Shown here: piece after piece, positions 17,546-39,636 of the stretch
How positions within the stretch are numbered: position 1 is the first letter of the stretch
Layout: each line of letters begins with the position of its first letter
Virus record (IMG/VR): IMGVR_UViG_3300048007_000381
Location: 1-40,718 of that record
DNA length: 40,718 bases
Source of the DNA: a virus
Direction: 5' to 3' (one strand)
The notes under the pieces: generated by a model
Told to the model about the DNA's origin: nothing
Databases searched by the model: none
The model's input: only the letters and a program-made list of their open reading frames with translations
Made by a program: the position numbers and the translations under genes

Positions 17546-20500
17546 ATGTACATTATAGGAGATAAAGAATTATCTGATGAGCAAGCCCGCGATTTTGCCG
17601 CTAAATTCGGCAGTGAACTTGACGTGCTTGCAAAAAAATACAACTGGCAGTATGTTGCTGGTGATGTGGGAAAGACAACGGTTCCGGAGGACACGACTCC
17701 GCCGACGGGACCAGGATTAGCAACGCCCGCTGGGGAATCCAGATTGGGCATTACTTTATTGGAGTCACCCGTAGCTAGCGCCCCTAAAATTAACGAATAC
17801 GTAACAGCCGAAGATTTAAAAGGAAGCGAAGAAAAGGTTTCTAAAATGCTTAACGAGAAGCTTTCTGGCTTGGGACTTTACGTTACAGAAGGCACCGGCA
17901 TGCATTCTTGGGACGCTGTTAACATAAGAAAACGTGACGAAAAAAGAAACTACTCGCCTTACGGCGCTATACAAACAGTTCGTACCGGTGTCGAGTTTGG
18001 GCCAGAGCTTTCGGAAGAAGAGCTTAGTGAAAAAGCCGCGGAAATAAACCTTAAAATAGAGGAGTTAAAAAACGATAACTACCTTACAGAAGCTCAGGAA
18101 AGATCAGGTGCTAAGTATGATGAATACAAAGCGGCCACAACCCCTGAGCCACTTTCTGAAAAAGAAGCCTTAAATCTTTACGAAAAAGAACGTGAGGAAA
18201 AGTTCAGCAATATTAGACGCTTCCGAGATAACAAAGGTTTTGATGTTTCTTTTGAGAACGGCGACTTTGAAAGCGTTGAAGAAGAAGAGCAATATAAAAA
18301 ATACTTAGCAGGTAGCTACATAGCGCCGCCTAATAAAGAGCGGTTAACAGCATGGGAAAATGCCCGCAATGAGGGTTACACTTCAAAGCAGTCATTAAAG
18401 TTTGCGAACAATCTTGACCGCCAGACTAGGTTGGACCTAGAAGCTATAGCGGCTAATGAAAAAGCTATAGCGGAAGAACGCGTTGGTGCTTTAAATAAAA
18501 AATACGAAAGCCAATCCGCAGCCTACGAAGAATCTTACAATGCTTTTGAATCAAACCCAACCGAAGAAACCAGGTTGGTTGCGCTTGCTGATTTTGAAAA
18601 TTTACAACAAACATTATTAGAAGGCAGGGAGCTAGCGAAAGATAGCAAAGGATTACCTTTGGCTATTAAAGATTTTGGCGCTAATTACAATAGACTACAG
18701 CAGTTGACTAGTAATTTTAAAGGCTTGGCTGCAGACGCTAATTACCTTACCGCTCAGTTAGGCCAGTTATTAGGAGACGACCCGAAATACAAAGAGGCTG
18801 CATTTCAAATGGCAGCTGGCATAAAAGAAGAACAACAAAAGTTTCAAAGGTCTGTAAAGGTTGATGAAATAGGTAGCCTGCAAGAAGCGGGTATGTGGCT
18901 AGCATCGTCTAGCACCAGTCTTATTCCTTCTTTGGCTATGGCGTTTACGGGACCAGCAGCACTGCCTTTGTTTTTTGCAACAGGTGCGGGTAGCACTGGT
19001 GTGGAAACAGCAATTGCTGAAAGAGACGCGGCAAAGCGCATGCTTAGTAACCGTGAGCTCCTAGATGGTAATCCAAATATAGATGCTCTTGAGCGCTCTG
19101 CTATTGAAGAGCAAATGCAAAAAGACTCTAAAACGTTAAACATACCAGAATGGCGTAAGATTACGGCACAGGTTTGGAACGGTTTAGCAGAAGTTGCGTT
19201 TGAAAGAACAGGTACTTTGTATTTACTTAAAAGCTTGAAACAAGGAGCGAAACTTTTACCACCTAAAACAATTAAGCAGGCGGCTATTAAGCTAGGTAAA
19301 GACGTTGTTAAAGGCATTAGAGTTGAAGGTGGATCCGAGTGGGCTACAAATACCTTCCAAAACTTTGCTGATATTTATATATTAGATGAAGACAAAAACT
19401 TTTTTGAAGCTATTACTGACGAAAAGCTTTTTGAAGAAGGTTTAGAAACTTTTGCACAAGGTGCCTTAATGGGTGGCGGCATGTCTGTAGGCGGTAATTT
19501 TGGGGCTATTAAAGAAGCCTATTTCAGCGAGCTAGCCACAAGTAAAGAAAGCGCTAGGCTAAAGGAAATAATAGCTAAACTAGAGTCTTTAACCGGTGTT
19601 AAAGGCCTTACAAATGCCGGTGACGGTGTTCCTTTGCCACAGCAAACTCAAGAAGTGCAAGCCCTCGTTGAAGAACTTACAGGAGAAGCTAACGATATAA
19701 AAAACAATGTTATCGCTCGTTTAGGAGTGGATTTAACATTAGAGGATGCTAAAGCAGTAGGCGATATAAACCGTCAGATGCGCAAAGTTAACGCTGACTT
19801 CGTAAAGCTTGCATCGAACACTGATTTAGGTGCGGCTCAATTAAAAGCTATAGAAACAGAATACAGAGCCAAGTTTGATAAATTAGCCGAGCAACGAGAA
19901 GATATATTAACCAACGAGCAGTTAAGCACAAAAAATTTAAAGGCATCAAGCGGCAACAAGGTTGTATTTGACGCACAGACCGGTTATGAGATGTATCAAG
20001 ACCGCATGCTTAATGAAAGCATGGTTGGCATAGCGCAAGAATGGAATAAAATGCGTGGTGGTAAAAAAACAGAAATGTTTAATGCCGCAAAAATTGAATT
20101 AGAAAAAGAAGCCGGCCCAGGTAAAGCTATAACAGCGGAGGCCATTGAGAAGCGCGCGATAGATAACTTTGAAAATTTAAAGTACGCTGAAAAAATAGAA
20201 AGCGGCGCAAAAAACGTTGAAGATTACGCTAAGGCTAACAATATAAACGTACGCATTGAAACATTTGACGGAGATAATGCCTCAGCGGCTTTTGAGCAAA
20301 GGCTATTAGATTTAGGGTACAGTAAAGAAAAAGCTGCTGAAGTAGCAGAAGAATCTGAAGAATCTGAAGAAGGCCCTAAACTAGAAGTAGAGGCTATAAA
20401 TATACCTGGTAAAAACGGGGAGCCAGATATTATACTTATTAATAAACCTATGTCCGTTAAAAACAAAAGGATAGGTGTTTATGCTCACGAGCTTCTTCAC

Positions 20501-23500
20501 TCAATAGCCCGTCAAAAATTTAACACTACTGATGTTACTAAAGCGGGTGAGGAGCTTCTTGGTTATTTAGAAAAAAACCAACCTGACCTGTACACTAAGG
20601 TTAAATTTAGAATAGACCAAAGCTACACTGAGACAAGTGAAGACGGGGAAGTAACGAAAGACGCAGATTATTACGAAGAGGCGATGAACGCTATGTCTGA
20701 TGTTATTGCAGACGGCCAAGCGGTCGATAAAAACTTTTTGTTACAAGCACGTTCTTTTGTTAATAGTTGGCTGCCCGCTTCAATGCAACTTAAAAGCGAT
20801 GAAGCTACTTACCAGTTTATTAGAGGCTTTAACAAACAAGCACACTTCGGCGGCAAAGGTCCTGCTTTAAACATTAAGGACAAAACCGTTGGTGATCGCT
20901 CTGATGAAGAAGCGCCAACTGCAAAAGAATCAAGAACGCTTACGCCTGAGCAAGACGCTGGCGTAATAGACATGCTGTCTAGGCGTGCCGGAAGAATTGA
21001 GGAGGCTAAAAAAGTAGCTGAAAAGTTCGGCGTTGAGGTTCAGGCTGACGCCGTACAACAACGTCTTGAAGCAAAAATTAGAGAACAACTAAGCCCCCTT
21101 ATTGGCAAAATTGTTACTAATCGTACTAAAGCATTGTACGATCCGATTGCACCAGAGCAACGCAATAACGTATCTCGCGAAGATTTCCAAAACTCTTTAA
21201 GAACAGAGATTGAAACTTTAGCTTTTGAGGAATTTAAAGAAGGCAAGCAGGATATTGAAAAGTTCTTGGTCAACAGAGCGTTTCTAAGATCTAACAACTT
21301 AGCCTCTAGATTAGGTATTGAATCGGCAAAAACAGGTGGTATTAAGAAAGACATTGACACTGCTAAAGGTATGGCGGCGCAGGAAGAGACCACAGCTAAG
21401 GAAGACAAGCCACAATACAAAACTCTGCTAGAACGCAGGGTTTTAGACAGCGAAGTTGTAAATTCAATTAAAGAAAAAGTTAAATCAACCGTGCGTGTTA
21501 TGAAAACGCGTATGGATGAGTCCGTATCTAAAAACGTTACTGTTAAGCCATATATTGCCGAGCTTCGTAAAGCTATGGGCAAACAAGCTGACATCGACTT
21601 AAAGAAAGCGATGGGCGGCAAGAAAGACGGTGAACTTCGTAAATTCCTTTTGCGTAACAAAGCTGCTATTTTGCAGAACATGACTACCACGTACTTGATG
21701 ACGGCTATGCCTAATGCTATCCAGAAAAAAGTTAACGGTGTATGGACAAGTGATTGGAAGGGTAAGAAAATTGATAGAGAGTCTGTAGACACAGACAAAG
21801 CGGGCCGCACATCAGGTGCAGAGCTTGTTAGAAGACTACCTAATGCATCAACTAGATTATCTGATGCTGATTACTTATCTAACATTTTAGACGCGTCTGG
21901 AGCGCCTATACGAGGCCGCAAAGAATCTTTAGCTAAAGCAATGGCGGAGGAAATTTCTTTTGATATTGTTAATGAGGCTTTGCAAGACCCTAATAGTGAA
22001 ATTCGCCAGGCGTTTGAAATGCGTCAAGACTTGCTGGGGGTTGAACTTGTGGATAATTATACCACTCAAGCGATAGTAGACATTGAAAGGGGCAATGTAA
22101 AATACAGCCTTTCTGCGGCTCAATACGGAGAGTTTAACGATCGCATGGGTAGTTTAAAAATTATTATTGATAGCCAAAATACCGGAAATCTTACTAATGC
22201 CAGATTGCGCAATGCTTTAATTAAAACCTTTGAAAACGAGCCTAGCGACATTATTACTGAAAAAGAAATAAAGAAATTTGCCAACGAGTCTTTTAATACC
22301 GTTAAAAGATATCTTAGTAAACCAGAAGCGCAAGATGTAAATTTTGCCTCGTTTGTACAAGAGGGTGTTGAGCTGTCTAAACAAAAAAGCAACCTAATGC
22401 TTGCTTTGGATATTGCTAAATCATCATTAAAGGGTGGATATAAAGCTCTTTTTGAAAATAAAAACTTAGTTAACAGACAAAGAGGCCTAAGCTTAGATTT
22501 TAATACCAAAACAATAGAAGAGCAAGGAGTAAAAGGTTTAATAACGGTACTAAAATGGATGCGTGGGCACCAAACCACTTCCGGAAAAATAGGCGGTGGT
22601 CGAATGCAGATATACGCTGGTGTTTCGGATTTTATTAATAACAATTTAAATACAATACCAGGTGTTAAAATAGAATACAAAACCGGGGGTGCAGGCGTGG
22701 TGATAACCAATGTATCTTACAAAGGCGAGACTGTTAAAGACTGGAAAAAACTTACATTAACACCCGCTCAGACAGCTACAAAAACGGTCAGCAAAGATGG
22801 TGTTAAAGCAAAAGCGCCTATTTCTAAAAAAACATTTGAAGAGCAATATGACCAAAGAGTAAAAGAAGCTAGGGAAGCTTGGGAAGTACTTACTGATTAT
22901 CTATCTTACGTTAATGAAAACGGCAATAAATTAGACTGGGTCATGACAATGATGAGTCTTAAGAGTAACATGTCTAGTATGCTTAAGGCTGCTGCCCCTG
23001 TTAAATATTACCATACAGGCGCGCCAACTGCTAATTTAAGATATGAACACATGATACCTACTGAGTACATGGTTCTTAAGTTAACTCAGCATTTCAAAAT
23101 TAAAAATATAGATTTAAATAAACTAAGAGACAAATACAACGTGGCTATTATCCCTGTAAAAATGGATGACAACTTTAACATATTGGTGCAGTCTCAAATG
23201 AATTCTAATTTTGATTTAGAAACAGACAGTGAAGTATTTAGATATTATAACAAAGGCACCTATGGCTTTAAAAACATGGAAGCGCTTGAGGTTATTGGCG
23301 GCAAAAATAAAGGAGAAGTTATAGGTGAAGGTTGGGTTAAATTTAATAAAGAAATTAATGCAGAAGAAGCTGCTAAAGCTATTGAAGAAGTAAAGCAGGT
23401 TGAAAGAGCTAAATTTAGTAAATCACCAAAAGCGGAAGAGCTAAGTAAAAAGTTTAACAATATACTTGAACGTAAAACAGGTGTTGAATCATTTAAAACT

Positions 23501-25582
23501 TTCTCCGCTGTACAAGCGCAAAAGCGTGGTGAAAAGAAAGGCAGGTTTAAATTCTTTGTTGCGCCTAGTGTTGATGATTTTAGAGGCTTAGTTAACTATG
23601 CGTTCGCTGGTAAGGGCAAACAGGGTGAAGCTGATATGAAATGGCTCGAGGATAACTTAATGACGCCTTACGCTAAAGGTGTAGCCGCTATTGATGGCAT
23701 ACGTCAACAAATTAAGCGTGACTTTAAATCTGCTGTTAAAGCTTTCCCTAAGCAATACCAGTTACTAAACAAAGAGATTGGCAAAACAGGTTTTACCTAT
23801 GATCAAGCTGTTAGAGTTTACTTATGGGGTAAAGCTGGTATTAAAGTACCAGGCTTGTCTCAGAAAGATACGAAAATACTACAAGACGCTATTCGTGAAA
23901 ATCCAGAGTTAATGGACTTTGCGGACGCAATGCTTGTTGTTGCTCGCCGCGATACTTGGATGGAACCTAGTGAATACTGGGCTGGTAATACGCTACTGTC
24001 GGACCTTAACAGCATGACCGAAAAAATTGGTCGTAAAAAATATTTAGAAGAGTTTATAGCAAACGCTGATGCAATATTCACCACGGAGAACCTAAATAAG
24101 ATTGAGGCGTTGTACGGCAAAGCACATCGCGACGCAATTGAAGACTCTTTGTACTCAATGAAGAACGGCACAAACCGTAACGCGGGAGGCAATAAGCAGG
24201 TTAATGCATGGTTAAACTGGATTAACGGTTCTACAGGCGCAATCATGTTCTTTAACAGACGTTCTGCATTGTTACAGATGCTTTCGTTTACTAACTTTAT
24301 AAACTGGTCTGACAATAACCCCGTTAAAGCAGCAGCTGCGTTTGCTAACCAAAAGCAATATTGGTCTGATTGGACTATGATATTTAACTCGGACAAGCTT
24401 AAAGAGCGTCGGGGTGGTTTAAAGCAAGACGTAAGTTCCGATGAAATTGCTAGTGTAGCTAACGCAAGTAAAAATAGCCCGCAAGCTATTTTAGCTAAGT
24501 TGTTACAATTAGGTTTTACACCCACTCAAATTGCGGATAGTATGGCTATTGCAACAGGTGGCGCTATGTATTACCGCAACCGCGTTAACGCTCTGATTAA
24601 GCAAGGCGTGTCACAAAAGGATGCAGAAGCGCAAGCGTTTATTGATTTTTCTAAAAAATCCGATGAAGCCCAGCAGTCCTCAGATCCGGCATTGGTGTCA
24701 CAGCTGCAAAGAAGCACACTAGGGCGTCTTATATTCGCTTTTCAGAACACCCCTATGCAATATACCCGCTTAATGAAAAAGGCGGCGTTAGATTTAGCTA
24801 ATAACAGAGGAGATTGGAAAGAAAACGTAAGTAAGATTGCTTATTACGGTGTAATACAAAACTTTATATTCTCAGCATTACAAAGCGCGTTGTTCGCTAT
24901 GTTGCCTGGGTTTGATGATGATGAAGAGGATCTTACTGCTGCTGAGCTAGACAAGAAGAATGCTAAGGAAGAGCAAAAGATAACTAGAGTATTAAACAGC
25001 ATGCTCGATACTGTACTTAAAGGCTCAGGTGTATATGGGGCGGTTTTCTCTACTGTTAAAAACATTATTAGAGAATACGATAAGCAAGAGAAAAAAGGTT
25101 TTATGTCCGATCATGCCTATACTGTTTTATCTTTATTTGATATATCGCCGCCTATCGGTTCTAAGGCTCGCAAAGTATACAGCGCAATTCAAACAAGGAA
25201 GTTTGAGAAAGATGAAATTGCAGCACGTGGCTGGGGAGTGGTAGCAGACGGAAGATTAGACTTAGGTCCTAATTGGACAATACTAGGCAAGGTTTTATCA
25301 GCTTCTATCAACTTGCCGCTCGATCGTGTGGTTGATGAACTTACTTCCGTGAGCGAAGCATTCGATGCACGCAACAAAGCGTGGCAGCGTATAGCATTAG
25401 GCTTAGGTTGGAAAACATGGGACGTAGGTGCTATAGAGGAAAACGCGGAAGCTATTAAAGAAGCCGCAAAGAAAGAGCGCAAAGAAGCTGGAATAGAAAA
25501 AGCGAAAGAAACTAGAGCTGCAAACAAAAAAACCAAGAGCAGGGGAAGAACTGTTAAAACAAGAGGGGGAAAAACACGATGA
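17546..25582 (+). CDS. Giant ejection protein with metallopeptidase motif
   Basis: A 2678-residue polyprotein-like internal virion protein, about twice the length of T7 gp16. The N-terminal 440 residues are charged and helical. A hydrophobic Gly/Ser/Ala segment at about 449-486 (SLIPSLAMAFTGPAALPLFF) could touch membrane. Residues 981-985 are HELLH in the context RIGVYAHELLHSIA, the zinc-binding motif of zincin metallopeptidases; Glu1044/1045 in YYEEAMNAMSDV may supply the third ligand. The long centre is Lys/Glu-rich with scattered globular segments. The last about 450 residues look most conserved-like, including MFFNRRSALLQM and FQNTPMQYTRL (about 2398), then a hydrophobic stretch at about 2431-2457, and end in a basic Arg/Lys tail. 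It would be packaged in the head and ejected with DNA, possibly cutting peptides in the envelope. It overlaps the endolysin gene as ATGA. Confidence 0.7.
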   Translation: MYIIGDKELSDEQARDFAAKFGSELDVLAKKYNWQYVAGDVGKTTVPEDTTPPTGPGLATPAGESRLGITLLESPVASAPKINEYVTAEDLKGSEEKVSKMLNEKLSGLGLYVTEGTGMHSWDAVNIRKRDEKRNYSPYGAIQTVRTGVEFGPELSEEELSEKAAEINLKIEELKNDNYLTEAQERSGAKYDEYKAATTPEPLSEKEALNLYEKEREEKFSNIRRFRDNKGFDVSFENGDFESVEEEEQYKKYLAGSYIAPPNKERLTAWENARNEGYTSKQSLKFANNLDRQTRLDLEAIAANEKAIAEERVGALNKKYESQSAAYEESYNAFESNPTEETRLVALADFENLQQTLLEGRELAKDSKGLPLAIKDFGANYNRLQQLTSNFKGLAADANYLTAQLGQLLGDDPKYKEAAFQMAAGIKEEQQKFQRSVKVDEIGSLQEAGMWLASSSTSLIPSLAMAFTGPAALPLFFATGAGSTGVETAIAERDAAKRMLSNRELLDGNPNIDALERSAIEEQMQKDSKTLNIPEWRKITAQVWNGLAEVAFERTGTLYLLKSLKQGAKLLPPKTIKQAAIKLGKDVVKGIRVEGGSEWATNTFQNFADIYILDEDKNFFEAITDEKLFEEGLETFAQGALMGGGMSVGGNFGAIKEAYFSELATSKESARLKEIIAKLESLTGVKGLTNAGDGVPLPQQTQEVQALVEELTGEANDIKNNVIARLGVDLTLEDAKAVGDINRQMRKVNADFVKLASNTDLGAAQLKAIETEYRAKFDKLAEQREDILTNEQLSTKNLKASSGNKVVFDAQTGYEMYQDRMLNESMVGIAQEWNKMRGGKKTEMFNAAKIELEKEAGPGKAITAEAIEKRAIDNFENLKYAEKIESGAKNVEDYAKANNINVRIETFDGDNASAAFEQRLLDLGYSKEKAAEVAEESEESEEGPKLEVEAINIPGKNGEPDIILINKPMSVKNKRIGVYAHELLHSIARQKFNTTDVTKAGEELLGYLEKNQPDLYTKVKFRIDQSYTETSEDGEVTKDADYYEEAMNAMSDVIADGQAVDKNFLLQARSFVNSWLPASMQLKSDEATYQFIRGFNKQAHFGGKGPALNIKDKTVGDRSDEEAPTAKESRTLTPEQDAGVIDMLSRRAGRIEEAKKVAEKFGVEVQADAVQQRLEAKIREQLSPLIGKIVTNRTKALYDPIAPEQRNNVSREDFQNSLRTEIETLAFEEFKEGKQDIEKFLVNRAFLRSNNLASRLGIESAKTGGIKKDIDTAKGMAAQEETTAKEDKPQYKTLLERRVLDSEVVNSIKEKVKSTVRVMKTRMDESVSKNVTVKPYIAELRKAMGKQADIDLKKAMGGKKDGELRKFLLRNKAAILQNMTTTYLMTAMPNAIQKKVNGVWTSDWKGKKIDRESVDTDKAGRTSGAELVRRLPNASTRLSDADYLSNILDASGAPIRGRKESLAKAMAEEISFDIVNEALQDPNSEIRQAFEMRQDLLGVELVDNYTTQAIVDIERGNVKYSLSAAQYGEFNDRMGSLKIIIDSQNTGNLTNARLRNALIKTFENEPSDIITEKEIKKFANESFNTVKRYLSKPEAQDVNFASFVQEGVELSKQKSNLMLALDIAKSSLKGGYKALFENKNLVNRQRGLSLDFNTKTIEEQGVKGLITVLKWMRGHQTTSGKIGGGRMQIYAGVSDFINNNLNTIPGVKIEYKTGGAGVVITNVSYKGETVKDWKKLTLTPAQTATKTVSKDGVKAKAPISKKTFEEQYDQRVKEAREAWEVLTDYLSYVNENGNKLDWVMTMMSLKSNMSSMLKAAAPVKYYHTGAPTANLRYEHMIPTEYMVLKLTQHFKIKNIDLNKLRDKYNVAIIPVKMDDNFNILVQSQMNSNFDLETDSEVFRYYNKGTYGFKNMEALEVIGGKNKGEVIGEGWVKFNKEINAEEAAKAIEEVKQVERAKFSKSPKAEELSKKFNNILERKTGVESFKTFSAVQAQKRGEKKGRFKFFVAPSVDDFRGLVNYAFAGKGKQGEADMKWLEDNLMTPYAKGVAAIDGIRQQIKRDFKSAVKAFPKQYQLLNKEIGKTGFTYDQAVRVYLWGKAGIKVPGLSQKDTKILQDAIRENPELMDFADAMLVVARRDTWMEPSEYWAGNTLLSDLNSMTEKIGRKKYLEEFIANADAIFTTENLNKIEALYGKAHRDAIEDSLYSMKNGTNRNAGGNKQVNAWLNWINGSTGAIMFFNRRSALLQMLSFTNFINWSDNNPVKAAAAFANQKQYWSDWTMIFNSDKLKERRGGLKQDVSSDEIASVANASKNSPQAILAKLLQLGFTPTQIADSMAIATGGAMYYRNRVNALIKQGVSQKDAEAQAFIDFSKKSDEAQQSSDPALVSQLQRSTLGRLIFAFQNTPMQYTRLMKKAALDLANNRGDWKENVSKIAYYGVIQNFIFSALQSALFAMLPGFDDDEEDLTAAELDKKNAKEEQKITRVLNSMLDTVLKGSGVYGAVFSTVKNIIREYDKQEKKGFMSDHAYTVLSLFDISPPIGSKARKVYSAIQTRKFEKDEIAARGWGVVADGRLDLGPNWTILGKVLSASINLPLDRVVDELTSVSEAFDARNKAWQRIALGLGWKTWDVGAIEENAEAIKEAAKKERKEAGIEKAKETRAANKKTKSRGRTVKTRGGKTR

Positions 25583-32329: not shown

Positions 32330-32365
32330 AAAGGGGACCCGTTACTGGATCCCCTTTATTTTTTT
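32330..32365. terminator. Bidirectional terminator between convergent arms
   Basis: The arms AAAGGGGACC (32330-32339) and GGATCCCCTTT (32347-32357) form a 10-bp stem with one bulged A and a CGTTACT loop, followed on the plus strand by ATTTTTTT (32358-32365). The leading A-rich side (taataaataaaa) gives a T-rich tail when read leftwards, so it can stop both arms. It lies between the last rightward gene (stop at 32323) and the stop of nrdA (32364). Confidence 0.85.
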
Positions 32366-34091
32366 AACCATCACAGGCAACGCAATCATCCATTGCAGCA
32401 GCGGCTAAATCGCCACGCAGCACTGATTCCGTCCTCGTATAATACAAGGTTTTGACACCTTGCTTCCAAGCTTCCATATGAACTTTGTTAATCCACTTTG
32501 GAGTAGCTTCAGAAGGGAAGGCTAGATTTAAACTAACCGATTGGTCAATGTACTGCTGCCGTATTCCGGCTTGCCTTACTAATTCCAGTTGGTTAATTTC
32601 TTTAAACGTTTTAAACACGTTCTTAACTGGCTCGTCCCAATCACCCATTAACAATCCATCGAGTTCTTCGATGTTCTGCACTGAGCCACCGTCGGCTAGG
32701 ATTTGATTCCAGATCTTTTCAGTGTTTATCTCATTATCTTCTAAAACACTTTCAAGAACAGGGTTTCTACGTATGAAAGTACCCTTAGCACTTTGTTCTG
32801 TAAATACGTTTGCGGCCCACGGCTCAATACCTGGAGAAACGTTCCCAGCCAGTTTACTATTACTAACGGTAGGAGCAATAGCCCTAAGATGAGTGTTACG
32901 CATCCCAGTGCCGACACACCAAAGAGGTTCACCATAGACATCGGCCAGGTCCCTTGAAGCGCGTTCGCTTTCAATTTTGATTTGAGAGAATATTTTTCTT
33001 GTTTCATATTGTGCTGATAATCCTTCAAAAGGTATGCCTCTGTCTTGCAAATAAGTATGCCAGCCTAAGACGCCAAGACCCAATGGTCTGCCCTTAACTG
33101 CTGAGCGTATTGCATTTTCAAAACCACGCAAGCCTTTTGCTCGTTGTATAAATTCTTCCATAACACCATCTAAAAACCATGTAGCATGGTAAATAAGATC
33201 AGTGCCTTTCCATTCGTCGTACTTAGACAGGTTAAGCGAACTCAAACAACATACAAAGCTGTGTGACTCGTCTGTATGCAGTGTAATCTCACTACATATG
33301 TTTGTCATATGTACTTTTAAACCATTTGACTTATATGCTTCCGGATTGTTCTTATTAACGTTCCCTTTAAACATAATGTACGGTTCTCCAGTTGCTTTTC
33401 GCTTTCTAAGAAGTTTACTCCATCGAGTTCTCGCTTCTTTATCGCCTTGTTCAAGTCGTCGCATAAACTTATCACCAACAATTGCGCACTGATGGAGATT
33501 AAGCGATTGTCGGTTAACATCGCCCTTCGGTTCTCTGATTTCCAACCACTCTTCGAAATCAGGGTGTTCAATGTTGATGTTAACTGATGCTGCTCCTCTT
33601 CTAACAGATCCTTGATTAGTTGCAAGGATTGTTGAGTCATAGATTTTGCAAAAAGGTACGACTCCGTCTGATGTTCCATTTCCTGTAATTTTAGCTCCAG
33701 CGGGTCTTATCATATTAATGCCAACACCCACACCGCCACCGTGTTTTGCTAGCAACATCATTTCTAGGTTCTTAGAGCCGATATCTTGGATACTATCCGC
33801 GACATCAATTCCAAAGCAACTAATCGGTAAGCCTCTGTCGGTACCGGTATTTGAAAGTACAGGAGAAGCCAGGTTAAGCCAACCTTTCCATATGTAATCA
33901 AAAAATACATCTGCAAGTTCTGGCTTATATAATCTTCGCGCAACTGTTTTAGCTACACGTTCGTAAGCATCTCTTGGGGTCTCGCCTTGCAGCAAGTACC
34001 CACCAGAGATTGTTTTTCTGTATACTTCAGTATCACCCCATGCAGGGTAGTCTGTTCCTTTGATCCATTCGTTATTCCAAGTCTCTACCAT
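32364..34091 (-). CDS. nrdA: Ribonucleotide reductase class I large subunit
   Basis: A 575-residue alpha subunit that reduces ribonucleotides to deoxyribonucleotides with the beta subunit's radical. Visible catalytic parts are: redox Cys92 (ISCF) and Cys281 (VCCLSSLNL); the active-site triad N264-I-C266-S-E268 (NICSEI); the radical-transfer tyrosines Y550/Y551 in VKTLYYTRTE; and the C-terminal thioredoxin-reducible CVAC (570-573). It lacks the about 100-residue N-terminal ATP-cone of E. coli NrdA (761 residues), so dATP feedback through a cone should be absent. The nrdB stop overlaps its start by 7 bases. The order is nrdB then nrdA, the reverse of the common bacterial order. Confidence 0.93.
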   Translation of the reverse strand: MVETWNNEWIKGTDYPAWGDTEVYRKTISGGYLLQGETPRDAYERVAKTVARRLYKPELADVFFDYIWKGWLNLASPVLSNTGTDRGLPISCFGIDVADSIQDIGSKNLEMMLLAKHGGGVGVGINMIRPAGAKITGNGTSDGVVPFCKIYDSTILATNQGSVRRGAASVNINIEHPDFEEWLEIREPKGDVNRQSLNLHQCAIVGDKFMRRLEQGDKEARTRWSKLLRKRKATGEPYIMFKGNVNKNNPEAYKSNGLKVHMTNICSEITLHTDESHSFVCCLSSLNLSKYDEWKGTDLIYHATWFLDGVMEEFIQRAKGLRGFENAIRSAVKGRPLGLGVLGWHTYLQDRGIPFEGLSAQYETRKIFSQIKIESERASRDLADVYGEPLWCVGTGMRNTHLRAIAPTVSNSKLAGNVSPGIEPWAANVFTEQSAKGTFIRRNPVLESVLEDNEINTEKIWNQILADGGSVQNIEELDGLLMGDWDEPVKNVFKTFKEINQLELVRQAGIRQQYIDQSVSLNLAFPSEATPKWINKVHMEAWKQGVKTLYYTRTESVLRGDLAAAAMDDCVACDG

Positions 34092-35053
34092 ATGTCTTCA
34101 AAATCTTCTCCTTCGTTAGCTTTAGAATAGTCTGTCGGTCTGATCGCAAAGAAATCAGTGTGTGTTACACCACCTGTTAAATGGTAAAACCAATCTAATT
34201 TTTTGGCCGATCCTTCCACATAAGGGAAATAATTGCCAAGGTCAATATAACCAAGCTCAACAAGCTTTTCATTTGTTCTCTTTTTAATAAAATTCTTTAA
34301 ATCTTCAGCGGCTATGCCTTCAATATCACCAGCCTCAAACATCTTATCTATATAATCTTCTTCAAGTTTTATCATAGTGGATGCGGCATCAATAACATCT
34401 TTCCGGCATTGTTCCATTAATTCAGCGTCTTCTTCGCACATATGGCGAAACAATTGACACCCCATCTTGCTGTGCAATGACTCGTCTCTTACACTCCACT
34501 TCATTTGCTGCCCAATACCCTTAAGTAAATTGCGCAGTTGAAAAGAATACAAAACAGCAAAAGCCGAGTATAGACTAACGCCTTCCGCGAATGCACTGAA
34601 CACAGCTAATGATTTAGCTATGCCTAACTTATCTGTGCCATCGTATGCGACTAGATTATCAAACCTAGAGGCTGTTGCGGGCTCGTGTAAGAAGGCTTCA
34701 TAATCTTCTAGGCCTAACGTCTCATTGAGGTAACTATAAGCTACTGCGTGGACTGTTTCTTGCGAGCCGAACATCATGGCCATTTGCTGTATTTCGTGCT
34801 TTGGGAACCAGCCAACAACTTTTTGTGTCCAATAATCAGACACGGCACATTCTGTTTGTGCAAAACCTAAAAGTATGTTACCTACTAAGTTTTTTTCCTC
34901 AGGTGTAAGCTTCTCGTTCCAGTCTTTAATGTCGCTTTGCATTGATATTTCAGTGTGCAGCCAAAATGCCTGCGCTTGCTTTAGCCAACCTTCCGTGTAA
35001 TATTCTGGATATTCAAAAGGTTTGTACGCTACTCGTTCGTTAAATAACCCCAT
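34085..35053 (-). CDS. nrdB: Ribonucleotide reductase class I small subunit
   Basis: A 322-residue beta subunit that holds a di-metal centre and the tyrosyl radical. Metal ligand candidates are E68 (AQTE), E99 and H102 (SQETVH), E157 (FAEG), and E191 with H194 (RDESLH). Tyr106, four residues after H102, corresponds to the radical tyrosine, so this looks like a tyrosyl-radical class I enzyme rather than class Ic with Phe. The first ligand is Glu, not Asp. The C-terminus is acidic with EDFEDIW, resembling the peptide tail that docks to the large subunit. The start overlaps the stop of the tiny gene at 35053-35199 as TAATG. Confidence 0.92.
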   Translation of the reverse strand: MGLFNERVAYKPFEYPEYYTEGWLKQAQAFWLHTEISMQSDIKDWNEKLTPEEKNLVGNILLGFAQTECAVSDYWTQKVVGWFPKHEIQQMAMMFGSQETVHAVAYSYLNETLGLEDYEAFLHEPATASRFDNLVAYDGTDKLGIAKSLAVFSAFAEGVSLYSAFAVLYSFQLRNLLKGIGQQMKWSVRDESLHSKMGCQLFRHMCEEDAELMEQCRKDVIDAASTMIKLEEDYIDKMFEAGDIEGIAAEDLKNFIKKRTNEKLVELGYIDLGNYFPYVEGSAKKLDWFYHLTGGVTHTDFFAIRPTDYSKANEGEDFEDIW

Positions 35054-35199: not shown

Positions 35200-35350
35200 A
35201 TTTGTTTATTTGTTCTATTAGTTCTTTATAAATTACTCTGCCGCGTACATCCCACGACCACTTAATCCATTTTTCTATCTTTCGCTCTGCGTACTTTTTC
35301 CTGGCGACTGCTTTTGTTTCTCCAGGATCAGTTGAATTGTCTCGTCGCAT
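35183..35350 (-). CDS. 55-residue hypothetical protein overlapping the nuclease end
   Basis: A 55-residue ORF from the ATG at 35350 to the TAA at 35183. It lies in another frame of the last 76 bases of the endonuclease gene, runs through the 75-base gap and ends 17 bases inside the next tiny gene. The content is plausible protein: charged N-terminus, WIKWSWDVRGRVIYKELIEQ in the centre and a polar end. It fills an otherwise empty gap, so I favour a real gene, but the long overlap leaves doubt. Confidence 0.5.
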   Translation of the reverse strand: MRRDNSTDPGETKAVARKKYAERKIEKWIKWSWDVRGRVIYKELIEQINKYERKE

Positions 35351-35757
35351 TCTTTCTGATTTTGTGGTTTATACAATGTGAACGGCTCTAGTTTGTTTTC
35401 AGCTATATGCTTTTTGAACAGCTTCCAGCGCATTGGGAATGATTCGTTAGCTCGTCCTTTAGTCTCAATGATAAAGTGCTTGCCTACGAAATCGGGGGTG
35501 TACTTAATGTTGAGGATTTTCTTATTTCCTCTATTAGTAAATTCGCCCTTACCGTTCCCCGTGCGCTCGTAACTTTCAAATGGGAAATCAAATGCTTGTT
35601 GCAATTCGAATGTTTCTCCTTCATATAATGCTGCTATTTTAGCTTTTCGTAAAGCCATGTACATATACTTTTCAAGCCCTGAGGCAAAGTTGATACCGTC
35701 ATACGATACCTTCTTTGCTCTCACTGGTCCTTTCTTTCTACTATATTTCTTTTTCAT
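35275..35757 (-). CDS. T7 endonuclease I-like Holliday junction resolvase
   Basis: A 160-residue PD-(D/E)XK nuclease resembling T7 gp3 (149 residues), which resolves branched DNA and degrades host DNA. The likely catalytic set is Glu29 in SGLEKYMY, Asp89 in YTPDF, Glu98 and Lys100 in IIETKG, spaced like the E...D...ExK set of T7 endonuclease I. I chose the ATG at 35757 rather than the in-frame upstream codon at 35865. It begins MKKKYSRKK, lies next to the preceding stop, and the upstream extension would overlap the previous gene by about 100 bases. The basic N-terminus suits DNA binding. Confidence 0.8.
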   Translation of the reverse strand: MKKKYSRKKGPVRAKKVSYDGINFASGLEKYMYMALRKAKIAALYEGETFELQQAFDFPFESYERTGNGKGEFTNRGNKKILNIKYTPDFVGKHFIIETKGRANESFPMRWKLFKKHIAENKLEPFTLYKPQNQKECDETIQLILEKQKQSPGKSTQSER

Positions 35758-35758
35758 A

Positions 35759-36004
35759 TTACTCCTCGGAGCTCTGTGCTTCATATGTTTCTTTGGCTTT
35801 TTGTAAATACAAGACTGCATCCATGAGTTCTTCTTGTAAGTGATTAAGCCAAGCAAGCATTTCACTAGGATCGTCTTGCAACGTTACGCCGTACTTTTCA
35901 AAGCCGACATTTGATCGACCCACAAACTTTTGGCATACACGGCGTACAACTGGGTCACGGAATTGCATTGGCACGATAGTATCGTGTGATTTTATTGGAT
36001 TCAT
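35759..36004 (-). CDS. Small MazG-like / phage conserved protein
   Basis: An 81-residue helical protein with VGFEKYGVTL followed by WLNHLQEELMDAVLYLQK, a pattern with an EExxDA helix that resembles the metal-binding helices of all-alpha NTP pyrophosphatases, although too short for a full MazG fold. It follows the MazG fusion gene with an ATGA overlap, so the two are co-translated and may act together. Without a second ExxE helix, catalysis on its own is doubtful. It could be a regulatory or dimer partner. Confidence 0.5.
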   Translation of the reverse strand: MNPIKSHDTIVPMQFRDPVVRRVCQKFVGRSNVGFEKYGVTLQDDPSEMLAWLNHLQEELMDAVLYLQKAKETYEAQSSEE

Positions 36005-36837
36005 AGTGTGCTGGTTTTAGATTGTAAGTAGTCAGAGAATGCATTGTTACTTGGCATTGTTTGTTTTACAAACGAGCCGTTGACCATAGAACCACGTCTA
36101 TTAGAGATCTCATCGTAAGCAGACTCAATGCAATCTTCAATACGGACGCCTCCAAGGTGGGCAAGGTTGGTGAGAACAACAACGCAATCACCAATAGCAT
36201 CAATAAACTCCTCGTTATCATCCCTAAGTACAGCTTGAGCAAGCTCTCCTGCTTCTTCATATAATTTAATTAATTGTGTCTTTGTATCGCCTTTAGCGTA
36301 TATACCCCGATCATCTGCCCATCTGCGGATATCGCCAAATATAGTTTCACCAAAGTCTTCTTTTGAATGCACGACACTATTGTGGCGAGTTTTGTCAAAT
36401 TCAAACATAGCCTTGTTGTAAATGTAACAACGCTCATTGTTGAAGCGTGATGTTAGTGCATTGTCAACAATCCACTTTACTAACGGCTTGTCTATTGTAA
36501 CGCGATGTCCGTGCGGTGTTACCCAACTTAAACCTATGTTGTCCATAAGACGACCTTTTAGTTTGTTTAATGGTACAGGGAATGTTGTTGTTTGATCGGT
36601 AATGTTTACTCTCATTTGTTTTGGTTTAAAAAGGTTTTTGTATAATTCAGTGTCAACTCTATAGCCGTAAGACTTTTGAAGTTCTATCTCCAACTGTGAT
36701 ATCTCGTCGATATCTTCACCCGTAAATAGAACTTCGTATTCGTCTGGAGCGTAGCCTTGCTGCTCCGTTACTCTCTTATTAAGATTACGTGTTACGCCTA
36801 TTTTTTTACCCGGTATGTGATAAATATAGTATGTCAT
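36001..36837 (-). CDS. GIY-YIG-like domain fused to MazG pyrophosphohydrolase
   Basis: A 278-residue protein with two recognisable parts. Residues 1-60 follow the GIY-YIG plan: YYIYHI, then KIGVTRNLNKRV with Arg17, then a helix ISQLEIELQKSYGYR with candidate catalytic Glu. Residues about 185-245 are a MazG-type all-alpha NTP pyrophosphohydrolase: YEEAGELAQAV and EEFIDAIGDCVVVLTNL, with metal-binding E194, E195, E198, E210 and D213. The central about 100 residues are unassigned. MazG enzymes hydrolyse (d)NTPs and can lower ppGpp in infected hosts; the GIY-YIG part may be a nuclease or may no longer be active. The stop overlaps the next start (ATGA). Confidence 0.7.
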   Translation of the reverse strand: MTYYIYHIPGKKIGVTRNLNKRVTEQQGYAPDEYEVLFTGEDIDEISQLEIELQKSYGYRVDTELYKNLFKPKQMRVNITDQTTTFPVPLNKLKGRLMDNIGLSWVTPHGHRVTIDKPLVKWIVDNALTSRFNNERCYIYNKAMFEFDKTRHNSVVHSKEDFGETIFGDIRRWADDRGIYAKGDTKTQLIKLYEEAGELAQAVLRDDNEEFIDAIGDCVVVLTNLAHLGGVRIEDCIESAYDEISNRRGSMVNGSFVKQTMPSNNAFSDYLQSKTSTL

Positions 36838-36843
36838 TTTGTC

Positions 36844-37668
36844 TTATTTGCCAACCGATAGCGGTGCTGGTATCGCGGGCTTTGGGTTGTAGTTTTTAAT
36901 GGTTATATCGCTGAACTCCGGAATGATCACCTCGTTGTGCATTGTGCTATACATGCCCTTGGCTAGTTCAAGCTCAGGCATATGCGCTGGCTGTACTCTA
37001 GCTAAGTATATTCTAGCTTGCTCTAAGTGATCGTTGTACAAATGGCAGTCGCCAAGTTGTGCAATTAGTTTGCCGGGTTTTAAGTTGTTGCCTTTGGCAA
37101 TCATTTCAAGTAGCAAACCGTACATTGCAATGTCATAAGGCAAGCCTAAGAATACATCAGCGGAACGTTGTTGCCACATTAAATCAAGTTGCCCGTCGTT
37201 TACATACAGCTGAAAGCCATAATGGCACGGTGGTAATACCATATCAGGCATATCCGCGGGGTTCCAAGCGTTAACGATCATACGACGTGATGTTGGGTTG
37301 TTTCTCACATCGTCTAAAACATTAAACAACTGGTCTACGCCGTTAAAGTCTCGCCATTGTTTGCCGTATACAGGCCCTAGGGTCTCATCAGAGCGTCCTG
37401 AGCGATCGTAATCAGCATTCCAGTATGTAACGCCATTATCGCGAAGATATTGCATGTCAGTGCGTCCATTTGCAATCCATAGTAGTTCGTGAATGGCCAT
37501 TTTGTGGTACACACGCTTGTTAGTTAGCAAAGGAAAACCTTCACTCATATCGTGCACAAGCATTCTACCAAACACTGAGCGCGTACCTGTACCTGTGCGG
37601 TCGTCTTTATGTGGCGCAAGTAGCAAGTCCATGATTAGTGACTCATATTGCTTTTCGATGTTTGTCAT
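36844..37668 (-). CDS. thyA: Thymidylate synthase
   Basis: A 274-residue ThyA-type enzyme that makes dTMP from dUMP and methylene-tetrahydrofolate. It shows RTGTGTRS (24-31), the phosphate-binding double Arg (SRRMIVNAW), the catalytic Cys148 in LPPCHYGFQLY, the QRSADVFLGLPYDIA loop and a final NYNPKPAIPAPL-like end. I chose the ATG at 37668 (MTNIEKQYE) because the upstream in-frame start at 37716 would overlap the neighbour by more and add non-family residues. The gene overlaps the 94-residue gene by 26 bases. With NrdAB it provides dTTP for phage DNA. Confidence 0.95.
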   Translation of the reverse strand: MTNIEKQYESLIMDLLLAPHKDDRTGTGTRSVFGRMLVHDMSEGFPLLTNKRVYHKMAIHELLWIANGRTDMQYLRDNGVTYWNADYDRSGRSDETLGPVYGKQWRDFNGVDQLFNVLDDVRNNPTSRRMIVNAWNPADMPDMVLPPCHYGFQLYVNDGQLDLMWQQRSADVFLGLPYDIAMYGLLLEMIAKGNNLKPGKLIAQLGDCHLYNDHLEQARIYLARVQPAHMPELELAKGMYSTMHNEVIIPEFSDITIKNYNPKPAIPAPLSVGK

Positions 37669-37927
37669 AATAGTATTTATAGTATTTGTAAATTTGCGGC
37701 CATAGCTCTTTAGCATGAAACGTTTCAGGGCTACGGCTTAATCTTCCCTGTATTATAATATCAATATAGAAGTATTGAGGGTTTGTTTTAACTTTTTCAG
37801 CGGCTAACGGTCCAATGACTATATTGTTCTTTAAGCACCAGCGCATAGCCTCAAATTCTTCAGGTGTTCTATAATAGTTACCAAAGTCTGTTTTCTTATT
37901 TTTGCTTTTGCCGAATCCACTGCCCAT
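37643..37927 (-). CDS. 94-residue hypothetical protein
   Basis: Function not recognised. Residues 1-15 are basic and Gly/Lys-rich (GSGFGKSKNKKTDFG). After that there is a helix with YRTPEEFEAMRWCLKNN and a Tyr-rich helical end (WPQIYKYYKYYYDKH). It is coupled to the primase-helicase by a TAATG overlap and overlaps thyA at its 3' end, so it belongs to the replication operon. It has no membrane segment or signal peptide. Confidence 0.7.
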   Translation of the reverse strand: MGSGFGKSKNKKTDFGNYYRTPEEFEAMRWCLKNNIVIGPLAAEKVKTNPQYFYIDIIIQGRLSRSPETFHAKELWPQIYKYYKYYYDKHRKAI

Positions 37928-39636
37928 TATTCCCAGGGCATTTTAGCATCGAGCAAGTCTGCTGGGTTATCTATAGACAAATAGTCACCAGAGTCTGGTT
38001 GCCATTTAAAATGCGCCTCTGCACCATTCTCTCCAAGGTTTTGAAACTTAACTTTAAGCACTTTGCATTTAACAGTCTTTGCTTCGTAGTCTCTGTGAAC
38101 GAGTAAGCCGTGGTAAGAAGCGTCGTACCACTCGCCGCCGCCTTTAATATTGTACATAGTTGGTTCCTCAATCTTACCATTTGCATCTTTATACATCTTA
38201 GTAGGGTGAGCAACAACAATAACGAGCACGTCGTACTTCTTAGCAAACGTTTCTATCTTCTGCAAATACTCAAGAGTATATACATTAACATCGCCTGACT
38301 GGTCATTTGATCGTACTTTATTGAACGGGTCAATAACCAAACACTTAATGCCTTTACGCTTTACTAGCTCAGCACCTTTCTTTAATACTGCTTCAAGCGT
38401 GTAGCGTTCCATGTCTATATGGAAGAAGTTAGTATTGCAATGGTCGGCTATTTGGTTCCATCTATCGCTGTATATATCAGCCGCGGTTGGCATTCCACCC
38501 CAGCATTTACGCATTAGCTTATGCGCATGCAAATATGTTGGTTGGTTTTCGGGTGATGCAAATGCCGTTTTCCATTCATAGTTGCGGTTGTAACCAACAA
38601 CCATTCGGTCTACAAAATCCGACTTACCACTGGAAGGTATGCCTGTAACAGTAATAAACTGCCCAGTGTAAGTGCTGAAGATATCATCGAAGTTACTAAG
38701 GCCAATCTGAAAGCCGGGCTTAAAGCCATTGCGAACAAAGTCGGTGATTTCGTCTTCGATATCACGGAAGGTTGTAACGTTTTCAAGCGGAACGGGCTTT
38801 GCATTCGTAATTCTAGATACGAGTTTTTCTGGTCCATGCTTTATTAAATATTCATTAGCGTCCTTACAGTCATCAAACGTAGCTAAAAAACAAACCTCGG
38901 AGCCTAATCTACGAATAAGTTCGGTTTGTAATGCAACTCCCGCTTCGTCTGAGTCAGTAGCAAGTATGATTTTCTCTTTATCTTCAAAGTAATCAATACA
39001 AGCATCTAAGTAATCTAAATTGTTAGTATTAAGTGTAGCGCCGTTAGGTACTGATATTACGTTACTAATACCCGCTTCGTGCAGCGCTAGCACATCCATT
39101 TCTCCTTCTACAAGGATACAATACTCGTAACCTACAATACTATCTATATTGTAGAATACTTTTTCGGCACCCTTATATAATTTAAAGTTCTTTCTCCCAT
39201 CACGATACTTAACGTTAATTAAGTTATCGCCCATGAAATAATTGAACTTTATAACATTCTCGGCTTTACCGGTCTGCGGCATATATTCACTGCCTTCAGT
39301 AACACGTAGCTCGTGTAACGTTTTGCGGGATATACCCCTTGTCTTAAACCACTCTTCTACTTTGCTACCCACCTCTTGAACAACAAAGGCTTCAGGCTTG
39401 ACATATGTCTTTTCCGAAGTACCTTTGCGCTCGTAAGTGTGTAACTGAAATGATTTATCACAGTTATGACAAGTACCGAGACCACGTTCCCAATCGTAAG
39501 AAGCACATTTTTGCTTCTGGTTCTCGGGTTTTCTTGTAGAAGAACACAGAGGACAAGTCCCCTGCGTTTTACCTTCATCAAGACCATGCTGATTGAAGTT
39601 GTCAATCACAAATCCATTGATCTCTACTGTCTGCAT
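37927..39636 (-). CDS. T7-type DNA primase-helicase
   Basis: A 569-residue replication protein with the T7 gp4 plan. The N-terminal zinc-binding region has C28, C31, C56 and C59 (CPLC...CHNC). A TOPRIM primase domain follows, with Glu177 (LVEGEMDVLAL) and D228/D230 (ATDSDEAG). The DnaB-like helicase has Walker A GIPSSGKS (332-339) and Walker B D436 in CLVIDPFNKV. It unwinds DNA and primes the lagging strand, moving with the SSB and a DNA polymerase. It starts at an ATG after an AT-rich leader, and its stop overlaps the next gene's start (TAATG). The DNA polymerase partner is not in this window. Confidence 0.93.
   Translation of the reverse strand: MQTVEINGFVIDNFNQHGLDEGKTQGTCPLCSSTRKPENQKQKCASYDWERGLGTCHNCDKSFQLHTYERKGTSEKTYVKPEAFVVQEVGSKVEEWFKTRGISRKTLHELRVTEGSEYMPQTGKAENVIKFNYFMGDNLINVKYRDGRKNFKLYKGAEKVFYNIDSIVGYEYCILVEGEMDVLALHEAGISNVISVPNGATLNTNNLDYLDACIDYFEDKEKIILATDSDEAGVALQTELIRRLGSEVCFLATFDDCKDANEYLIKHGPEKLVSRITNAKPVPLENVTTFRDIEDEITDFVRNGFKPGFQIGLSNFDDIFSTYTGQFITVTGIPSSGKSDFVDRMVVGYNRNYEWKTAFASPENQPTYLHAHKLMRKCWGGMPTAADIYSDRWNQIADHCNTNFFHIDMERYTLEAVLKKGAELVKRKGIKCLVIDPFNKVRSNDQSGDVNVYTLEYLQKIETFAKKYDVLVIVVAHPTKMYKDANGKIEEPTMYNIKGGGEWYDASYHGLLVHRDYEAKTVKCKVLKVKFQNLGENGAEAHFKWQPDSGDYLSIDNPADLLDAKMPWE

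Follow-up and report, generated by a model that had tools for sequence, protein, structure and literature searches.

A phage with replaced cytosine faces three tasks: synthesis of the modified base, exclusion of the ordinary base, and destruction of DNA that lacks the modification. T4 uses separate genes for these tasks. The T4 dCTPase-dUTPase takes part in 5-hydroxymethylcytosine formation (PMC5107563), Asp179 determines that T4 dCMP hydroxymethylase takes dCMP (PMC6400193), and T4 endonuclease II is a GIY-YIG enzyme that degrades host DNA (PMC1564403). An equivalent Asp is present in MilA (PMC5175136), the Asn177Asp exchange turns thymidylate synthase (TS) from dUMP to dCMP, and Asp at that position is a mark of the TS homologues found on modified viral contigs (PMC8670742). 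The MazG-like MazZ of phage S-2L is encoded beside PurZ and supplies it with dGMP (PMC8342488), cyanophage MazG prefers dGTP and dCTP (PMC6850273), degradation of unmodified nucleotides has been proposed for MazG-like enzymes of jumbo phages (PMC7824862), and nuclease activity has been proven for a phage T5orf172 domain (PMC8263062). MazG-like proteins with N-terminal fusions (PMC8342488) and HEG-derived T5orf172 fusions (Odn, PMC8263062) are thus already known separately.

We analyzed a stretch of 40,718 nt from a marine bacterial virus, IMG/VR record IMGVR_UViG_3300048007_000381 (positions 1 to 40,718; hereafter the window). Judged by its terminase, this phage is close to the Flavobacterium elemo and Cellulophaga phages. 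A 278-aa ORF on the minus strand (36001..36837) comprised three parts, a GIY-YIG superfamily domain of the T5orf172/MUG113 type (residues 1-62; 36652..36837), a conserved middle domain (residues 83-146; 36400..36591), and a MazG domain with a C-terminal beta hairpin (residues 164-258; 36064..36348). An earlier reading of the letters without database searches (the sequence-only reading) had proposed a fusion of a GIY-YIG-like domain to MazG at this place, and the proposal held, with Pfam T5orf172 and MazG both above cut-off and the predicted folds in agreement. By family membership, as judged from sequence, the protein is a T5orf172/MUG113-type GIY-YIG domain joined to an all-alpha NTP pyrophosphohydrolase. 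The AlphaFold model (pLDDT 90.6, with an 81-sequence alignment as input) showed a beta-beta-alpha-beta-alpha unit at residues 3-56, a further alpha/beta unit spanning 83-156, and, at 166-245, the helical bundle of MazG followed by the C-terminal hairpin; because pTM was 0.50, the relative placement of the domains is not fixed. Polyubiquitin and Pizza repeats, the top PDB sequence matches of the whole protein, were rejected as repeat artefacts, being summed weak hits with i-Evalues >200 per single domain in the rows shown.

In the GIY-YIG nuclease I-TevI, the first motif Tyr is catalytic, an Arg is carried on a helix, and a Glu binds metal. The sequence-only reading had suggested comparing residues 1-80 with GIY-YIG profiles, and residues 1-62 proved to be a GIY-YIG-superfamily domain by both profile and predicted fold. 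T5orf172 (PF10544, GIY-YIG clan) matched residues 5-59 (E 3.6e-4, 21.4 bits against a cut-off of 20) and was found at E ≤ 1 in 15 of 23 relatives. The core was modelled with pLDDT 95-98 (strands 3-8, 12-16 and 35-40, helices 19-26 and 43-57). Foldseek of residues 1-160 against the PDB gave no match at E ≤ 0.001, and VIA-align placed the UvrC GIY-YIG domain (1yd6) at the top with a Z of only 4.4 (rmsd 3.2, 60 aligned), the next, unrelated row having Z 4.0. Among viral predicted structures, most of the matches to the same residues that carried a name were proteins of the GIY-YIG, intron endonuclease or T5orf172 kind; BFVD entry A0A516MJS7 (248 aa), with 43% identity over 162 columns, suggests that a relative of the fusion has already been deposited without a name.

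Tyr6, Lys12, Gly14, Arg22 and Glu50 were invariant in 147/147 distinct relatives. Because some search patterns contained the residues being counted, we recounted in sets found through another domain, and all five were kept in 59/59 distinct full fusions gathered by middle-domain patterns only. On the earlier question of whether the motif Tyr, Arg and Glu are kept, Tyr6, Arg22 and Glu50 stand in every relative, with the correction that the second motif tyrosine (that of YIG) is Lys12 in 147/147 fusions. Lys also occupies this position in 17/17 free-standing rows, one of which (L203) ends at a contig edge and may be a fusion. As the second Tyr is absent, we do not file the domain as a canonical I-TevI/UvrC-type GIY-YIG. 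The substitution would suit a catalytically dead domain that binds only DNA or a partner, but Tyr6, Arg22 and Glu50 do not vary among the relatives, the Lys is also that of the free-standing genes, and changing the matching Glu inactivated a phage T5orf172 nuclease, as the available text of PMC8263062 reports; we regard a dead domain as most improbable.

The MazG part was the more readily placed by structure. Pfam MazG (PF03819) matched residues 188-247 (E 1.9e-6, 28.5 bits against a cut-off of 22) and was found in 23/23 relatives, and several phage MazG-like PHROGs were matched, the best being phrog_1992 (E 2.7e-35). VIA-align of this part gave Z 9-10 to MazG, HisE and dCTPase chains with 81-104 residues aligned, including mouse dCTPase with 5-methyl-dCMP (6sqw; Z 9.3, rmsd 3.0, 89 aligned) and S-2L MazZ (7ody; Z 9.1, rmsd 3.1, 97 aligned). 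That all catalytic MazG acids are present, as first noticed from the letters, was borne out for the EExxE...ExxD pattern: E194, E195, E198 and D213 were invariant in 147/147 distinct relatives, as were D217, N224 and R247, and position 210 was Glu in 139, Asp in 6 and another residue in 2. Eight positions (K191, E194, E195, E198, D213, D217, N224 and R247) were likewise kept in 63/63 fusions found by the N-terminal part. An offset of 160, read from residue numbers and not from an alignment, takes MazZ E34, E35, E38, E50 and E53 (numbering from the accessible part of PMC8342488) to E194, E195, E198, E210 and D213, and the same offset, read in the same way, puts the guanine-specificity residues I56/D60 of MazZ, also given there, on G216/V220. 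Val220 at the position of MazZ Asp60 may speak mildly against dGTP as the substrate. Hydrolysis of (p)ppGpp was set aside as a role of the MazG part; according to the abstract-level record, cyanophage MazG is without that activity (PMC6850273), and we found no pointer to it here.

Between these two parts lies a third conserved domain (approximately residues 83-146), which the earlier reading had not named. No Pfam family was matched in this part of the window protein and no PHROG in the window row, with scattered PHROG matches among 17 members, the best having E 3.6e-4 in 1/17. A structure search that barely covered this part gave no convincing fold match.

Viral-contig searches found 35 encoding places for the whole protein; for the N-terminal part we worked with the best 80 of 295, and for the middle part with the best 80 of at least 561 among candidate stretches, and the counts describe relatives near the query. 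Because loci from different scans overlap, counts are given by distinct protein, and the domain order in relatives was scored with three profiles built from the alignment of this analysis. We identified 168 distinct full-length ORFs with GIY-YIG, middle and MazG domains in that order on other viral and MAG contigs, and 10 further ones that end at a contig edge. These rule out a chance fusion or frameshift, which the sequence-only reading had named as a way in which its proposal could fail, along with relatives lacking the N-terminal part; the count came out for the fusion. Two ORFs (L242 and L252) had GIY-YIG and MazG parts with a diverged middle, and 3 full GIY-YIG/middle ORFs were separate from the MazG part. 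In L176, L269 and L032, the fusion was divided over two ORFs (GIY-YIG/middle and MazG, or middle/MazG); we read the divisions as frameshifts or errors and kept the ORFs apart. Ten relatives lay in MAG contigs, and L195-L200 among them showed phage gene order, so these are probably phage sequences inside MAG bins. A tblastn search with residues 1-160 and the same part of L012 found no match in 50,697 isolated-phage records.

Across 128 pairs (Nei-Gojobori), dN/dS was 0.10 for the GIY-YIG part, 0.08 for the middle part and 0.09 for the MazG part. With values near 0.1 at both ends and invariant residues in each, the nuclease end is as strictly kept as the MazG end. The suggestion that the protein may be a dual enzyme thus gains support, which comes from these conserved residues and from purifying selection.

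We also searched for the origin of the nuclease domain. Free-standing relatives of the N-terminal domain numbered 16 distinct full-length ORFs of about 130-200 aa with other tails. Of ten proteins scanned against Pfam, eight were free-standing; among these, L034 had NUMOD3 above the cut-off, five others had matches to NUMOD1, NUMOD3 or I-HmuI-NUMOD-like families below it, and L209 and L220 had none. In a tree of 74 columns, the 44 fused rows formed one group save for one free-standing row inside it (L214:338-802). These NUMOD-type tails make capture from homing-type endonucleases likely, and the idea of a captured homing endonuclease domain, raised from the letters alone, is supported by the 16 free-standing relatives, by the NUMOD1/NUMOD3-like tails of several and by the one nested in the fused group. 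A single capture from homing-type nucleases followed by one escape or mixing would be the simplest reading, offered tentatively on a tree of few columns. Two viral contigs each carried two free-standing genes of this nuclease type (L214:338-802 on the minus strand and 2504-2989 on the plus strand; L210:1622-2071 and 2471-2980).

The same tails and the nested row would also be expected if the protein were still a homing element, in which the gene spreads through cuts that the GIY-YIG part makes in alleles without it. However, no NUMOD match was found by Pfam in the 23 fused proteins scanned, the dN/dS of the GIY-YIG part is the same as that of the MazG part, and nearly every locus has the fusion, with no patchy pattern, in a sample gathered by similarity to the fusion. 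We consider a present-day homing role scarcely credible.

L205 (Vibrio phage 1.085.O, MG592460.1) encoded a MazG that stands free and is close to that of the fusion; a separate GIY-YIG nuclease gene lay less than 1 kb away on the other strand. The elemoA phage NC_055852.1, a relative by terminase, encoded a 127-aa PRA-PH/MazG-like protein (L207:1-384) and DUF1064, and no thymidylate synthase was annotated in its first 50 kb. This separate MazG-like protein of elemo phages was tried and rejected as a close relative, being weakly similar (E 0.006 for the pair). Further, the 158-aa product of L277:1959-2435 matched Pyr_excise (pyrimidine dimer DNA glycosylase) below threshold, with 21.0 bits where the limit is 23.

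The sequence-only reading did not include a cytosine-modification context, which we judge to be the more informative part and which appears in the neighboring gene. Directly upstream of the fusion, on the minus strand, lies a ThyA-superfamily gene (36844..37716; PF00303, E 9.6e-86) annotated as thymidylate synthase. Its Asp195 (codon at 37132..37134, minus strand) aligns with the TS Asn at E. coli ThyA position 177, and this dCMP-type Asp in a gene so annotated is new here. We predict from this residue that the gene encodes a dCMP (hydroxy)methylase rather than a thymidylate synthase.

Among 186 distinct fusion ORFs, 172 had at least 700 nt upstream and formed the testable set. A ThyA-superfamily gene was directly upstream in 170 of these (165 at first pass and 5 masked by the overlap limit), and the two genes overlapped by 4 nt in 40/166. 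Of the 165 first-pass neighbors, 163 were readable at TS position 177 (2 had gaps) and all 163 had Asp; the catalytic Cys146 was present in 165/165. The neighbors fell into three classes, window-like (57), L063-like (21) and L174-like (87), with Asp read in 57, 21 and 85, respectively. At position 147, the window's class shared His with E. coli TS, and the two remaining classes had Tyr/Phe or Thr. The L174-like class matched MilA (3.3e-21) and T4 dCMP hydroxymethylase (2.3e-17) ahead of the best thymidylate synthase (6.4e-15). On a quick tree of 113 thinned fusion proteins, the neighbor class changed at least 20 times, with the Asp unchanged throughout.

Most fusion loci also had in common a primase/helicase, an 81-aa gene, DUF1064 and NrdB. 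In the window, these are, all on the minus strand, the primase/helicase (37927..39636), the 81-aa gene, which starts in the fusion stop through an ATGA overlap (35759..36004; matched in 220/241 fusion loci, counted redundantly) and had PHROG matches of unknown function only, the DUF1064/phage resolvase-like nuclease (35275..35865; 218/241 loci, counted redundantly), and the small (34085..35053) and large (32364..34091) subunits of ribonucleotide reductase. No dNMP kinase or glycosyltransferase was found among the few extra genes scanned. The region of virion genes in the window contained an ORF of 2678 aa (17546-25582, plus strand).

As one gene order is common to most loci, adjacency partly reflects common descent and is weak alone. 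In other surroundings (L242, L252 and L254 type), a ThyA-superfamily gene was again directly upstream, with the Asp readable within GLPYD in L242 and GIPYD in L252. The Asp kept through class swaps, together with this link in other surroundings, indicates that the fusion functionally belongs with a dCMP-modifying enzyme. In L242, an 86-aa gene (1496-1756) stood directly before the ThyA-family gene. Two contigs, L131 (57 kb) and L145 (54 kb), had no PF00303 match anywhere, and 4/4 comparison contigs had one; the fusion can therefore persist without such a neighbor, and the association is not absolute. In both contigs, the fusion was intact and a 94-aa-type gene directly abutted it.

These two fusions without a ThyA-family gene, an operon that includes ribonucleotide reductase, primase and the DUF1064 nuclease, and the action of cyanophage MazG on dGTP and dCTP, to which the abstract of PMC6850273 attaches no link to base modification, would fit a dual nuclease and NTP pyrophosphohydrolase for general recycling. 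Such a protein would nick host DNA and trim dNTP imbalance (e.g., dUTP, dCTP and dGTP) with no link to cytosine modification. The constancy of the neighbor's dCMP-type Asp in every readable case, through all of those class changes, speaks against it, and we hold general recycling to be somewhat unlikely. The primase/helicase and the resolvase-like DUF1064 gene nearby, along with a recombination role proposed for T5orf172 domains in the available text of PMC7824862, could instead point to a structure-specific nuclease for replication or recombination, acting on junctions or flaps with MazG tethered for local nucleotide clean-up; nothing specific for junction binding was seen, however, and several close relatives have NUMOD-like tails, which leaves this improbable.

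We propose that a domesticated GIY-YIG domain of homing stock, the middle domain and MazG act in partnership with the upstream dCMP modifier, combining dCTP hydrolysis with cytosine-dependent cutting, a proposal for which the case is evenly balanced. The MazG part would convert dCTP to dCMP, supplying the upstream ThyA-superfamily enzyme that would modify dCMP, and this hydrolysis would at the same time keep ordinary dCTP from new phage DNA. The GIY-YIG part would cut DNA with ordinary cytosine, such as that of the host, and the modified DNA of the phage would be spared. In T4, the corresponding roles belong to the dCTPase gp56, the dCMP hydroxymethylase gp42 and endonuclease II (DenA); here a single polypeptide would take on those of gp56 and DenA. 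It is by analogy with MazZ and T4 that we assign dCMP production from dCTP to the MazG part and cutting of ordinary-cytosine DNA to the GIY-YIG part; both activities, the dCTP substrate, the cytosine dependence of cutting and the modification of the phage DNA are what we infer. The opposite preference, in which GIY-YIG recognizes modified cytosine and attacks competing modified phages with the middle domain as sensor, has a parallel in the defence nuclease CMoRE, in which, according to PMC12923530, GIY-YIG is N-terminal and a modification sensor C-terminal; yet the phage itself is probably cytosine-modified and would need self-protection, and we find this very unlikely.

More doubtful than the proposal of a partnership around ordinary cytosine is an extension of it, in which the two genes would form a mobile cassette for cytosine-modified genomes, widespread in uncultured marine phages. 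It would pair an exchangeable dCMP (hydroxy)methylase, drawn from three TS-superfamily classes, with a fusion that removes ordinary cytosine both as polymer and as monomer, the middle domain sensing modification.

In many uncultured marine phages (the middle-domain search gave at least 561 places), two of the three tasks of a cytosine-replacing phage appear to be fused and to stand beside a cytidylate-modifying enzyme that is interchangeable. If this is true, an abundant group of marine phages is predicted to have modified cytosine, the modification gains a marker gene, and a compact nuclease becomes available that may distinguish modified from unmodified cytosine; a homing-type nuclease domain would have been turned to metabolic use.

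GIY-YIG and MazG in one protein were not found in the open full-text literature searched, and the combination is not described in the accessible parts of PMC8263062, PMC12846349, PMC9964418 and PMC7824862. The nearest parallel for the nuclease end is ICP1 Odn (Gp88), of the same T5orf172/MUG113 type, which, as far as the available text of PMC8263062 goes, resembles the fusion in its T5orf172 match, in the kept Arg and Glu, and in joining an HEG-derived domain to another. The partner in Odn is a RepA_N DNA-binding domain, whereas here it is a MazG enzyme and the nuclease is N-terminal. The MazG end has a common fold, with two C-terminal strands, with S-2L MazZ and the phage MazG-like pyrophosphatases (phrog_1992 and phrog_715). 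MazZ and the fusion are alike in that each stands beside an enzyme that uses, or here would use, its product, and MazZ-1 often carries N-terminal fusions, as the accessible part of PMC8342488 states; here the N-terminal partner is a nuclease domain. MazZ makes dGMP for PurZ; by residue-number offset, Val220 of the fusion would stand where MazZ has the guanine-specificity Asp60. The upstream gene has the same Asp as the Asp177-type TS homologues of modified viral contigs, as reported in the available text of PMC8670742, and at their second marker position, 147, the window's class has the His of E. coli TS. T4 gp56, gp42 and DenA provide the same three functions that we propose here (PMC1564403, PMC5107563 and PMC11404850, each in its accessible part). 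In T4 these are three separate genes, whereas here two of the functions would reside in one protein, and the likeness is put forward as an analogy of function.
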